Shown here: piece after piece, positions 22,217 to 46,866 of the stretch
Layout of the letters: each line of letters starts with the position of its first letter
Numbering within the stretch: the first letter of the stretch is position 1
Assembly (NCBI RefSeq): GCF_000814025.1
Contig: NZ_JWLL01000006.1
Span: forward strand, 558,001 to 622,000
Length of the DNA stretch: 64,000 nt
From: Tateyamaria sp. ANG-S1
GTDB taxonomy: Bacteria > Pseudomonadota > Alphaproteobacteria > Rhodobacterales > Rhodobacteraceae
Direction of reading: 5' to 3'
Position numbers and translations under genes: made by a program
The notes under the pieces: generated by a model
Seen by the model: only the letters and a program-made list of their open reading frames with translations
Database searches by the model: none
Told to the model about the DNA's origin: nothing

Positions 22217-22314
22217 CTTCTTCTCTTTCCAAATACGGTGGGGAGTTTGAGGGGTGAAACCCCTCATTCCTCAAACATGAATCGTTTCGCCGCACGGCGT
22301 CCTTTGGATCACAG
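22217..22314 (+). repeat. 98-bp direct repeat, first copy, before livH
   Basis: Starts CTTCTTCTCTTTCCAAATAC and ends CCTTTGGATCACAG. It contains a perfect 6-7 bp hairpin GAGGGG-TGAAA-CCCCTC (22249-22265) and a second one CGCCG-CA-CGGCG. A second copy at 26026-26122 is about 90% identical. This copy fills the binding-protein to livH gap and ends 5 bp before the livH ATG, so it makes up the livH leader. Confidence 0.85.
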
Positions 22315-26025: not shown

Positions 26026-26122
26026 CTTCTTCTCTTTGGAAATACGGTGGGGAGTTTGAGGGGTGAAACCCCTCATTCCTAAATATGGATCGCGTCGCCG
26101 CAAGGCGTCCTTTGGATCACAG
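26026..26122 (+). repeat. 98-bp direct repeat, second copy, after livF
   Basis: CTTCTTCTCTTTGGAAATAC to CCTTTGGATCACAG, about 90% identical to 22217-22314, with the same GAGGGG-TGAAA-CCCCTC hairpin and CGCC-GCAA-GGCG in place of CGCCG-CA-CGGCG. It follows livF by 1 bp, and its last bases include the stop codon of the convergent GST gene. It may act as a terminator for one or both genes. Confidence 0.85.
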
Positions 26123-41801: not shown

Positions 41802-43175
41802 TCAGCTTGCCGCGCGCGCCTTGGCGCGGGTGGACCGCAGTTGGGACAACTCCTCGGCCACCAGGAACGCGAGTTCCAGCGACTGCGAGGCATTCAGGCG
41901 CGGATCACACGCCGTGTGGTAGCGGTCGCTCAGGTCCTCTTCGGTTACGGCGCGCACGCCGCCGGTGCATTCGGTGACGTCCTGTCCCGTCATCTCGAAA
42001 TGCACACCGCCGGGGACTGTGCCCTCGGCCGCATGGACGCCGAAGAATTCGCGCACTTCGCGCAGGACCGAGTCAAATGGCCGGGTCTTGTAGCCGGTCG
42101 ACGACTTGATCGTGTTGCCGTGCATCGCGTCGCACACCCAGACAACATTCGCGCCCTCTTCCTGAACCGCCTTGATCAAGCGTGGCAGATGTTCGCCCAC
42201 CGATCCGGCACCAAAGCGTGCGATCAGTGTCAGGCGACCTGCCTCGTTTTCCGGGTTCAGTTTCGCCATCAGAACCTTGAGGTCTTCTGTCGTCATGCTT
42301 GGACCGCATTTGAGACCGATGGGGTTCTGCACACCACGCGCGAATTCTACATGTGCGCCATCGGGCTGGCGCGTGCGGTCACCGATCCAGATCATGTGAC
42401 CCGAGCCCGCCAGCCATTTGCCGCTGGTCGAGTCGATGCGCGTCAGCGCTTCCTCGTATTCCAAAAGCAGGGATTCATGGCTTGTGTAGAACTCCACGGA
42501 CGAAAACTCGTGCGTGGTGTCGGCATCAATGCCAGCCGCGGCCATGAAGTCGATCGTGTCCTGAATGCGTGTTGCGATCTCGCGATACTTCTCGGTCCCT
42601 TGCCCGTCTGCAAAGCCAAGCGTCCAGGAATGCACCATGTTCATGTCGGCGAAACCGCCGGTCGAGAACGCGCGCAGCAGGTTCAGGGTCGCGGCGGCCT
42701 GGGTGTAGGCTTGCAGCATCTTCTGCGGGTTGGGAATGCGCGCCTCGGACGTGAAGGCGAGTTCGTTGATGATGTCACCGCGGTAGCTGGGAAGTTCCAC
42801 GCCGTCCACAACCTCGGTCGGGGCCGAGCGCGGCTTGGCAAACTGACCGGCCATGCGGCCCAGTTTGATCACCGGCACTTTGGCGCCGTAGGTCAGTACC
42901 ATTGCCATTTGCAGCATGACCTTGAAGGTGTCACGGATGCTGTCGGCGCTGAACTGGTCAAACGCTTCAGCACAATCGCCACCTTGCAACAAAAAGGCGT
43001 TGCCACGGGATGCATCGGCGAGATGAGCCTTTAGCCGCCGCGCCTCGCCTGCAAAAACCAGCGGAGGATACTTGGAAAGCTGCGCCTCAACCGCGTTCAG
43101 TGCCGCAGTGTCGGTATAATCGGGCATCTGGATCCGGGGCTTGGCGCGCCAGTCAGATTTCGTCCAATCGCTCAT
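41802..43175 (-). CDS. Class II 3-deoxy-7-phosphoheptulonate (DAHP) synthase
   Basis: First enzyme of the shikimate pathway, joining PEP and erythrose 4-phosphate. The 457-residue length and motifs [75 protein letters not shown], and [19 protein letters not shown] define the plant-like class II. It is divergent from a GlxA-type regulator, with a 14-bp palindrome in the gap. It has no aro neighbours; aroQ is 30 kb away. Confidence 0.96.
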
Positions 43176-43203
43176 CTTCTCTCTCTCCGCAATAAGCTGT
43201 TAG

Positions 43204-43217
43204 CGGTCACGTGACCG
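43204..43217. promoter_or_regulatory. 14-bp perfect palindrome in divergent promoter region
   Basis: CGGTCACGTGACCG is a perfect palindrome located 29 bp from the DAHP synthase start and about 126 bp before the regulator gene. Such sites are often operators for dimeric regulators; the regulator here is unknown. AraC-type proteins usually bind direct repeats, so the neighbouring GlxA-like protein is not an obvious match. Confidence 0.5.
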
Positions 43218-43342
43218 TAGGCCTCTATACAAAAGGTATCTAACGGACACCATATCACAATTGCAGCCTCTTGACGTAGCGTTTGGCCCGTGATCAGGCT
43301 GGCAAAACATCCGGGCGGCTCACACCCGGCAACGACAACAGG

Positions 43343-44359
43343 ATGTGCGCCGCGATGTCGCTTTCTCGCCAGGCAAATCAGACCCGCCAAGAGGTCGATA
43401 AACCCAAGCGTTTCGTTTTTGTCCTGCTCGACAATTTCACAATGCTTTGCTTTTCGGCGGCGCTCGAAAGCCTGCGCATTGCCAACCGTATGGCGGACCG
43501 AGAGCTGTATGCCTGGAAGATCATCGGCGAAGGCGGCGACGTTGCATATTGTTCCGCCGGGACCGGTTTCAAGTTGGACGGTGATCTGGACGAGTTGACG
43601 CGTGATGATGTGGTCATGGTCTGCGGCGGTATCGATGTGCAGGCGGCAACGACCAAACGCTTGCTTGGCTGGCTGCGGCGCGAGGCCCGCAAGGGTGTGC
43701 CGATGGCGGGCCTTTGCACGGCGGCCTATTCACTTGCCAAAGCAGGGCTGCTGGATGGCAGGAAGGCGACCATACATTGGGAAAACCAGGACAGCTTTTC
43801 CGAAGAATTTCAGGAAGTTGAGCTGACAAAGTCCGTGTTCGTCGTCGATGAAAAGCGTCTGACCACGGCTGGCGGCACGTCCTCGATCGACCTGATGCTG
43901 AAATTGATCGCTGATGATCATGGCGAGGATTTGGCCAACGCCGTGGCGGATCAGTTGATCTATTCCTCGATCCGCACCGATCAGGACACGCAGCGCCTGT
44001 CTGTTCCGACACGCATCGGCGTGCGCCATCCCAAGCTGAGCCAGGTCATCCAGATCATGGAACAGAACATCGAAGAGCCGATCAGCCCCTCAATTCTGGC
44101 CAAGGATGTCGGCATGTCGACCCGGCAGCTTGAACGGCTGTTTCGCCGTTATCTCAACCGCAGTCCCAAGCGTTACTACATGGAATTGCGGCTGCAGAAG
44201 GCCCGTAACCTGCTGATGCAGACAGATATGAGTGTAATCAACGTCGCACTTGCCTGCGGATTTGCGTCCCCTTCGCACTTTTCGAAGTGTTACCGGGCGC
44301 ATTACGACACGACCCCATATCGGGAACGTGGAACACACGCAGCCCGCCTGTCGATTTGA
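43343..44359 (+). CDS. GlxA-family transcriptional regulator (DJ-1/PfpI domain plus AraC-type HTH)
   Basis: A regulator of 338 residues. The N-terminal amidase-like domain contains VLLDNFTMLCFSAALESLRIANRM and GLCTAAYSLAKAGLLDGRKATIHWENQ, with Cys at the elbow. The C-terminal AraC-type double HTH includes MSTRQLERLFRRYLNRSPKRYYMELRLQKARNLL and VINVALACGFASPSHFSKCYRAHYDTTPYRER. Relatives control choline, carnitine or glycine-betaine use (GbdR-like). ATG 43343 is a choice; the frame is open to 43283 and ATG 43355 is an alternative. Confidence 0.9.
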   Translation: MCAAMSLSRQANQTRQEVDKPKRFVFVLLDNFTMLCFSAALESLRIANRMADRELYAWKIIGEGGDVAYCSAGTGFKLDGDLDELTRDDVVMVCGGIDVQAATTKRLLGWLRREARKGVPMAGLCTAAYSLAKAGLLDGRKATIHWENQDSFSEEFQEVELTKSVFVVDEKRLTTAGGTSSIDLMLKLIADDHGEDLANAVADQLIYSSIRTDQDTQRLSVPTRIGVRHPKLSQVIQIMEQNIEEPISPSILAKDVGMSTRQLERLFRRYLNRSPKRYYMELRLQKARNLLMQTDMSVINVALACGFASPSHFSKCYRAHYDTTPYRERGTHAARLSI

Positions 44360-44428
44360 TTGCGATACGCCACGCCTTTGCCATTTCGTTTTCATTCTTG
44401 AGCCGGATTGCGCACGCAGGCTGCGCAT

Positions 44429-44587
44429 ATGAAACCAATTCTGCCGAATGTCACAGCGCATATGCGACTGTTCGAATTGATGCGCCAACAACGCCTTGCG
44501 AAGGTGGCGGCATCCCACCCGGACCGGGAGGACGGCGACGCCTCGACCAGACTTCAGGCTGCGGCACTCGCTTCGTTTCAACGGTGA
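44429..44587 (+). CDS. Small protein, paralogue of the next ORF
   Basis: A 52-residue ORF beginning MKPILPNVTAHMRLFELMRQ. It aligns without gaps over 35 residues, then with one 5-residue gap, to the ORF at 44726: shared are P6, H11, R13, F15-E16-L17, R19-Q20, A24, V26, D32, E34-D35, and the end R-L-x-x-x-A-L-x-S-F-x-R. Such parallel conservation suggests both are real genes or remnants of a duplicated gene. No strong Shine-Dalgarno sequence is visible; an inverted TGCGCA pair precedes the start. I recognise no family. Confidence 0.5.
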   Translation: MKPILPNVTAHMRLFELMRQQRLAKVAASHPDREDGDASTRLQAAALASFQR

Positions 44588-44725
44588 TGCACTTGTTTTG
44601 GCCGACACGCTATGAATTGCGCTCACTCCAAGTCGAAGCCGTACATCGGCTCTTGAAGCGCGGTTGGACTTGCCCAACGCTGAAACCAAACGCTCCTGCC
44701 GAAAAGCATCTTTGCCGACCGCCGC

Positions 44726-44950
44726 ATGTCACTGCACGATCCCAAATCGCCGCGCCACCGCCGCGTCTTCGAATTACTGCGCCAAAACGACAGCGCCTTG
44801 GTCGTGACGCTGACGCAAGACGTTGAGGACACCGCGCAAGCGCCGCGCGTGGATTTTGAGCGTCTCAAGTCGACCGCGCTGCAATCTTTTGAACGTGCAG
44901 GATCAATCAGCGCTGCCACGAAACCCGGTCGCAACCACAAACTTCTCTGA
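44726..44950 (+). CDS. Small protein, paralogue of the preceding ORF
   Basis: A 74-residue ORF beginning [20 protein letters not shown]. Residues 1-57 match the 52-residue ORF at 44429. The remaining 17 residues are basic and overlap the 3' end of rlmE on the other strand (44903-44950). It is rich in Arg, Asp and Glu, with no membrane segment or signal peptide. Codon use has many G/C third positions like its neighbours. No ribosome-binding site is obvious. The function is unknown. Confidence 0.5.
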
Positions 44951-45637
44951 ACTGTCGGCGCGCGACGCCGGAGGTTTGACATTCGCCACTTTGGCAAAGC
45001 GCTGCTTGAGCAGTTTTTGCAGGCTCCCTTCCGCACCGCCAGCCAGCACTTTGGCGACGAATGTGCCGCCATCATCCAGCGCGTCGAAGGCGAAATATGC
45101 CGCCGCTTCGCACAGCGAGATGATGCGCAGGTGGTCGGTCTGTTTGTGCCCGGAGGAGGCAGCCGCCATGTCGGACATGACAACATCGGCCTTGCCGCCC
45201 AACCATTCCTTGACCTTGAGGTCGGCGTCATCTTCCATGAAGTCCAACTGGTGCAATTCGCAGCCCGCAATCGGCTCCATCTCCTGCAAGTCGATGCCGA
45301 GAATCGTACCCACCGCCTTGCCAGATTTTTCGCCTAGGGCGTTCACACGCTTGACTGCCACCTGGCACCAGCCGCCGGGCGCCGCCCCCAGATCAACAAC
45401 GCGCGCACCGGGGACCAGAAAGCGGAACTTGTCATCCAGTTCCATGATCTTGAACGCTGCCCTGCCCCGGTATCCTTCGGCCTGGGCGCGTTTGACATAG
45501 GGATCGTTCAACTGCCGTTGCAGCCAACGGGTGGAGGACAGCTTGCGTCCGCGGGCGGTCTTGACCTTGACCTTCAGATCGCGCTGCCCGCGTCCGGATG
45601 TGTTCTTGCCTGTGGGTGTCTTGGCCACTGTGCTCAC
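44903..45637 (-). CDS. rlmE: 23S rRNA (uridine-2'-O-)-methyltransferase RlmE (FtsJ/RrmJ)
   Basis: SAM-dependent methyltransferase that modifies the 23S rRNA A-loop. The core is [35 protein letters not shown] (catalytic Lys), [15 protein letters not shown] (SAM motif I), [20 protein letters not shown], and [20 protein letters not shown] 45637 has AGGAC upstream and gives 244 residues; GTG 45628 is an alternative. A basic N-terminal extension ([20 protein letters not shown]) is present. It follows the Ppx/GppA gene by 104 bp. Confidence 0.95.
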
Positions 45638-45741
45638 CTGTCCTGTTCGACATCGCGTTACCGTGCCGCGCGCATCAAGAGAAGTGCAATATAGATGTTT
45701 TTGCGCCGAATTGCAGGCCCCAGACCTGCACGGCACCCGCG

Positions 45742-46866
45742 TCAGGCGGTCTGATCCTCCAGAACGCCATCGGCGCTCATTTGAGCATACAACAACCCTT
45801 CGCGTAGGCCCCGGTCAGCAACAGACAGTCGGTTTGTCGGCCAGCACCGCATCAGCGCCTGCAGGATCGCCGCCCCCGACATAATCAGGGCGTGCCGGTC
45901 CGACCCGATCCGTGGATCGGCCTGCCGCCCGCCTGGCCCCATGGCAAGGTAGGAGCGAATAACCTTGTCGATCTGCTCGGACGTCATCCGCAAACCGTCC
46001 ACCTTGGTCCTGTCGTAGCGCTTGAGACCCAGATGGGATGCAGCAACCGTGGTGACTGTGCCCGATGTCCCGATGATCTGGAAGCGCTCGGTCGGTTCGG
46101 TTGCGTGGTATGGGGAAAAATCGGCCAGGTTTTCCTCAAAAAACCAACTCATTAGGGCAAATCGCGCAGAATCGTCCTCCACATCGTTGAATTGCTCGCG
46201 CAACGTGGCAACGCCCAAGGGCACACTGATCCAGTCGACAACACGCGCTTCGGGGATCTCTGATGCGGCCTGCGTGAAGCCGGAATGCAAACGCATGATG
46301 GCCTGCGGGCGATCCTCGCGTGCGACAGCGGACAGGTCGATCCACACCAACTCGGTCGAGCCGCCGCCGATATCGACCACCAGCAGGTTCTCGGTCTTCG
46401 GACTGACAAGCGGCGCGCAGGAGATCACGGCGAGGCGCGCCTCCTCCTCCGGTTCGATGATATCGAGACGCAGACCCGTCTCGCGATGCACACGCTGTAC
46501 GAATTCGCGTGCGTTTACCGCTCGGCGGCATGCCTCGGTCGCGACAAGACGCATGCGCCTGACCTTGTGACGCTTCAATTTCTGCTGACAGATACGCATG
46601 GCTTGCACCGTGCGTGTCATGGACCCGCGCGACAGCTTGCCGGACATCTCAAGACCAAGACCCAGTTGCACCGACTTCGAGAAACTGTCCACAACATGAA
46701 AGCCCGCGCCTCGCGGCTCGGCGATCAACATGCGACAACTGTTCGTACCCAGATCAAGCGCGGCATAGAGCTCGGGCGATCCTGGGGCACGCGGCACGGG
46801 CTTGCCCCTGTCACGGGGGCCTTTGGTCTTTGTCGCGCCCGCACCTTGGGGACGCTGTGGCGCCAT
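45742..46866 (-). CDS. Ppx/GppA family phosphatase
   Basis: Exopolyphosphatase/guanosine pentaphosphatase family protein of 374 residues. It carries [15 protein letters not shown] (phosphate 1), [19 protein letters not shown] (phosphate 2) and [10 protein letters not shown]. The basic N-terminal ~30 residues ([18 protein letters not shown]) are an extension. It forms a minus-strand pair with rlmE. Polyphosphate versus pppGpp activity cannot be decided. Confidence 0.93.

Follow-up and report, generated by a model that had tools for sequence, protein, structure and literature searches.

The window analysed here, a 64,000-nucleotide stretch of the genome of Tateyamaria sp. ANG-S1, contains two small open reading frames, ORF1 and ORF2, which lie in tandem behind the gene for a GlxA-type regulator and run tail-to-tail into the gene for an FtsJ-like methyltransferase (Table 1). 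The latter gene we take to be rlmE, the family itself being PF01728. Both reading frames were found exactly where the original prediction had placed two adjacent ORFs; ORF1 begins ~70 bases 3′ of the regulator gene and, like it, is read from the + strand. The true start of the regulator is probably downstream of the one listed, and the same can probably be said of rlmE from its alignments, since most of its relatives align from about residue 33–37. A promoter scan returned no site, and terminator-like sites numbered 2 against 1.5 expected.

Table 1. Positions of the small-gene pair, its neighbours and a repeated DNA stretch within the window.
Feature	Position	Strand	Description
Repeated DNA stretch, first occurrence	22217-22314		~100 bases
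Repeated DNA stretch, second occurrence	26026-26122		~100 bases, 3.8 kb from the first
GlxA-type regulator	43283-44359	+	DJ-1/PfpI and AraC HTH (PF12833, PF01965); upstream neighbour
ORF1 (copy A)	44429-44587	+	52 aa; family member ending right behind the AxxSF block
ORF2 (copy B)	44726-44950	+	74 aa; family member
Overlap of ORF2 and rlmE 3′ ends	44903..44950	opposite strands	48 bases
FtsJ-like methyltransferase (rlmE)	44903-45736	-	PF01728, E 6.1e-53; convergent neighbour of ORF2

The two predicted products resemble each other in the way first described, with 14 ungapped identities over the first 35 residues and a second block that follows a 5-residue gap. BLASTP aligns them at 29.3 bits (E 2e-7, 20/52 identities, one 5-residue gap), and their Smith–Waterman score of 69 was reached by none of 20,000 shuffles of ORF1 (maximum 58). 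When the 370 window ORFs of 40–100 aa were compared with one another, BLASTP reported 1494 non-overlapping pairs at E ≤ 10, among which ORF1/ORF2 ranked second (E 6.6e-5), behind a pair that is the product of a repeated DNA stretch. The two occurrences of that repeat agree at 95% over 58 nt and at 88% over 42 nt, include a hairpin-like GAGGGG...CCCCTC core, and yield two small ORFs that look alike because the DNA itself is repeated. It could be argued that the likeness of ORF1 and ORF2 is a matter of chance and both ORFs are spurious, as many ORFs had been compared by eye and this one repeat-driven pair scores higher; but each ORF has its own orthologues in other species, under purifying selection, and we find such a coincidence scarcely credible. 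It is these orthologues, and not the ORF1/ORF2 pair alone, that settle the coding status of the two frames.

Among the 61 genomes searched, orthologues of ORF1 occur in G005 (73%), G003 (67%) and G001 (54%), and those of ORF2 in G001 (63%), G018 (50%), G006 (47%) and G014 (42%), in each case in the matching position, flanked by the same pair of genes. The ATG that opens ORF1 is matched by an ATG throughout an alignment of six genomes, and the MSxHDPxxPRH start of ORF2 is common to four congeners. The original prediction was to be judged by persistence of the reading frame in relatives and by dN/dS among orthologues, and both came out in its favour: an open family frame is present at the locus in 14 of 19 congeners (G017 included), and changes between orthologues are mostly synonymous. 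Against this conservation of the frame, five of the 19 congeners are without a copy, and in several the second copy is decayed or deleted. For ORF1, three pairs gave dN/dS values of 0.14, 0.11 and 0.13 (dS 1.41, 0.85 and 2.72, respectively), the other three being saturated at synonymous sites (pS 0.75–0.89 versus pN 0.17–0.30). For ORF2, the G000/G001 pair gave 0.09 over the first 57 codons (dS 3.4, close to saturation) and 0.25 when all 74 codons were counted, the last of which overlap rlmE. Further pairs gave 0.07 (L113/L114) and 0.18–0.48 (six pairs among L081, L083, L084 and L096).

Purifying selection in the sense frame is thus a feature of the family with the exception of the three pairs containing L081, in which the synonymous excess of the antisense +1 frame equals or exceeds that of the sense frame. 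This antisense signal, the overlap of the ORF2 and rlmE 3′ ends and the weak ribosome-binding site of ORF2 (no clear Shine–Dalgarno sequence was seen upstream of it) are what might be expected if the conserved stretch were untranslated and acted as RNA, for example as the 3′ UTR of rlmE or as a region antisense to it. Yet when the six frames are compared, synonymous excess peaks in the sense frame in every one of the seven Tateyamaria pairs, the protein motif retains invariant residues despite low overall identity, and an Rfam search of positions 43000–46000 gave no match at E ≤ 0.1, such that an RNA role of this kind is extremely improbable. Both copies of the small gene, ORF1 and ORF2, are intact and subject to purifying selection.

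The pair belongs to a wider family, the members of which carry two blocks, RHxRLFELLRQxxxA towards the N-terminus and [LF]xxxAxxS[LF] towards the C-terminus, with a variable stretch between. ORF1 contains these blocks as AHMRLFELMRQQRLA and LQAAALASF, and ORF2 as a 15-residue first block and LKSTALQSF; both are rows of our alignment A1, and the A1 profile retrieves both from the genome. ORF2 overlaps the end of rlmE and ORF1 lies one copy further off. A narrow profile made from 17 Tateyamaria copies only was run on the 14,039 ORFs present at 78 non-Tateyamaria rlmE loci (a set of 80 minus two from Tateyamaria), and found the gene in place and on the strand opposite rlmE at 35 of the 78 at E ≤ 1e-3. 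Reversed proteins, used as a control for this profile, gave no match at E ≤ 0.1, one at E ≤ 1 and 12 at E ≤ 10. The A1 profile has a match at E ≤ 1 at 62 of these loci, among them weak matches and, at L115, a misplaced one, and none at the other 16, a result that is partly circular because A1 contains 26 of the 78. With the narrow profile, four further matches (L048, L052, L103, L111) were obtained at a distance of 0.5–1.9 kb from the rlmE end, with side and strand unchanged, as though intervening DNA had separated the family gene from rlmE. At Ruegeria loci such as L119, L067, L097 and L098, small ORFs beside rlmE keep a C-terminal LLLQ..A..SLREQ block and differ in the N-terminal half, as though these loci had exchanged or lost the first motif.

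Searches of whole genomes with the A1 profile, blind to location, point to the same neighbour. Matches were obtained in 35 of 198 genomes of the family Rhodobacteraceae, this genome included, and not in the other 163; among 142 genomes drawn from the class, the only matches were in this genome and in one other of the same family. We examined 31 of the loci so found, namely ORF2 of this genome and 30 others, leaving out six weaker matches from the family draw. A convergent rlmE is present at 29 of the 30, within 160 bp at 28 and 1.3 kb from the match at L148, and at L144 there is no rlmE in the fetched stretch. Identity to any profile row is at most 67% for 29 of the 30, the other (L127) being identical to a row, and at four loci (L128, L131, L141, L144) the match crosses a stop at its very end. 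The original claim, which concerned a pair at one locus, holds as regards the duplicated gene and is to be amended in that the gene family spans many Rhodobacteraceae genera beside rlmE. So far the family has been found only in Rhodobacteraceae, in many marine bacteria of the Roseobacter type, usually as one copy convergent with rlmE. Taken by themselves, the gene, the family and the duplication seem to us almost certain.

Pfam-identified flanks and the orthologues together bear out the original reading, in which a small-protein gene belonging to no recognised family has been duplicated in the interval from a GlxA-type regulator to rlmE. This setting holds in Tateyamaria, where the regulator was found in 20/20 genomes; in other genera the regulator is no constant partner. 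The upstream genes selected at ten of 24 loci were of eight kinds: a BrkB-type membrane protein (two loci), a lipid A acyltransferase (two loci) and, at one locus each, a multihaem cytochrome/TPR protein, a transporter permease, a PAS protein, an AraC/DJ-1-type regulator (L056, Marivita), a molybdopterin dehydrogenase subunit and a glyoxalase-like protein. Distant AraC/DJ-1-type regulators (30–34% identical) occupy this place at three of the 78 non-Tateyamaria rlmE loci (L056, L058, L059) and at two of the 30 further loci (L150, L154). The regulator is accordingly neither unique to Tateyamaria nor constant, and because the gene on this side varies it is rlmE that is the constant neighbour. A second homologue of the regulator, 46% identical, is encoded elsewhere in this genome (G000:C28:217141-218094), and similar second matches occur in the majority of the remaining 19 genomes of the genus.

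One could suppose that the small genes are an accessory of the GlxA-type regulator, lying in Tateyamaria within its transcript and modulating it, given that the regulator is upstream on the same strand in all 20 genomes, with copy A close behind it in the window, and that distant regulators recur at this place in the few other loci just listed. However, most other genera have another upstream gene, sometimes on the opposite strand, and five Tateyamaria genomes have the regulator without a copy, so that we hold this to be very unlikely. Membership of a regulator operon was dropped as the main reading owing to the variable upstream neighbour, the few loci with similar regulators notwithstanding.

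Copy number varies within Tateyamaria. Two intact copies are present in four genomes (G000, G001, G006, G014), copy A alone in five (G003, G005, G008, G010, G015) and one B-like or single copy in five more (G007, G009, G013, G016, G018), making ten with one copy. Five have none (G002, G004, G011, G012, G019): in these the flanking genes end 38–98 bp apart, and no copy was found elsewhere in the genome at E ≤ 0.1. G017, in which copy A is present and rlmE is outside the fetched stretch, is counted apart. In aligned DNA, a deletion runs across copy B in both G003 and G005, whereas a C-terminal part survives in G015, and G008 has a weak possible remnant (E 0.014). A tree built from regulator and rlmE DNA scatters the two-copy genomes over the genus, and the two genomes nearest the midpoint root (G019 and G011) are both without a copy. 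The pattern fits one old duplication with repeated loss as the simplest reading, a regulator/rlmE tree alone being unable to separate gain from loss. An old tandem duplication in Tateyamaria would have produced the rlmE-proximal copy B (ORF2) and, behind the regulator, copy A (ORF1), after which copies would have been lost several times. In the protein tree, copy-B sequences cluster (89/91) and lie near single copies of other genera. AU tests rejected neither a topology with copy A held together (p 0.58) nor one with all Tateyamaria copies as one clade (p 0.30). We only lean towards B as the ancestral and A as the derived copy, given a weak protein tree in which a single Tateyamaria clade is not rejected.

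The 34 members of the family that were aligned have a median length of 63 aa and a median pI of 10.5, with 30 of the 34 above pI 8; one F and one S (F14 and S53 in Leisingera numbering) are invariant throughout, and a membrane helix is not expected, as the highest 19-residue mean hydropathy among them is 1.0. AlphaFold2 models a 62-residue Leisingera member with a helix from residue 2 to 55 (mean pLDDT 85.5, pTM 0.46). Two short blocks on a basic helical protein, the variable stretch between them and the turnover of copies fit a small soluble adaptor. The product would be a soluble, basic, mainly helical protein of 50–75 residues, the two conserved blocks of which may form a contact surface for a larger partner (protein or RNA); through this surface the putative adaptor would bind and modulate that partner. 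Loss of the gene in several species suggests that its role could be dispensable, tuning dosage or specificity. Against an adaptor of this kind, the Leisingera model is a single continuous helix and not two blocks packed together. As a whole, from gene, family and duplication through to the adaptor mechanism, this statement is offered tentatively, as possible rather than probable.

The constancy of rlmE could instead reflect a basic helical protein that cooperates with RlmE or acts on the large ribosomal subunit, a role that would keep the gene beside rlmE while upstream genes change. The contrast between a convergent rlmE at 29 of 30 location-blind loci and eight upstream kinds in ten is consistent with this, as is the basic product. 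Convergent genes are not co-transcribed, though, and the 48-base overlap, or ends that nearly touch, can preserve linkage passively; moreover, a quarter of the Tateyamaria genomes (5/20) keep rlmE and have no copy. On balance we consider such a role unlikely. The fuller version, a Rhodobacteraceae-specific accessory factor for ribosome biogenesis or rRNA modification, encoded tail-to-tail with rlmE and duplicated in Tateyamaria into two specialised forms, we consider distinctly unlikely. A phage or anti-phage defence protein was also considered and set aside: PHROGs gave three single-member matches only (E 0.086–0.088), no PADLOC family was matched, and phage records searched with ORF2 returned no match. 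Plasmids searched with the Leisingera member likewise returned none.

For the adaptor reading, which we prefer, as for any other, the close relatives with two, one or no copies leave function open to comparison and deletion. A conserved unnamed gene is now mapped in an ecologically important marine bacterial family, and the pairing of its motif with rlmE as constant neighbour offers an easy way to recognise it where standard gene calling and searches with one sequence miss it. Such genes were predicted to escape annotation, and this holds in part, as some relatives are annotated as 'hypothetical protein'. A protein search with ORF2 alone recovered three database proteins, ORF2 itself among them, while 41 match the A1 profile at E ≤ 0.01, their names, where given, being 'hypothetical' or 'uncharacterized'. 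These proteins of Leisingera, Tateyamaria, Sulfitobacter and other Rhodobacteraceae (P0004–P0044) are of the same family as ORF1 and ORF2, several being close to A1 rows; their entries give no Pfam domain for any of the 41 and no family name, rlmE link or duplication. No family in Pfam or NCBIfam covers the 34 members, the best of the single-member matches having E 0.012 in each, and a PDB profile search gave no match. Among the literature matches listed, in so far as their partial texts extend, there is no description of an rlmE-convergent family, which is no proof of absence. The find is best regarded as a conserved, overlooked family of Rhodobacteraceae small proteins, present here as a tandem pair.

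The closest parallel in manner of action is with DUF1127 proteins, which are basic in make-up. The DUF1127 Pfam model matches 0/34 of our family members at E ≤ 0.1. The DUF1127 small proteins, YjiS and its alphaproteobacterial relatives, are reported to act by direct contact with a larger partner, PhoR (PMC12501420). These small proteins are a precedent for the putative adaptor and not its relatives.
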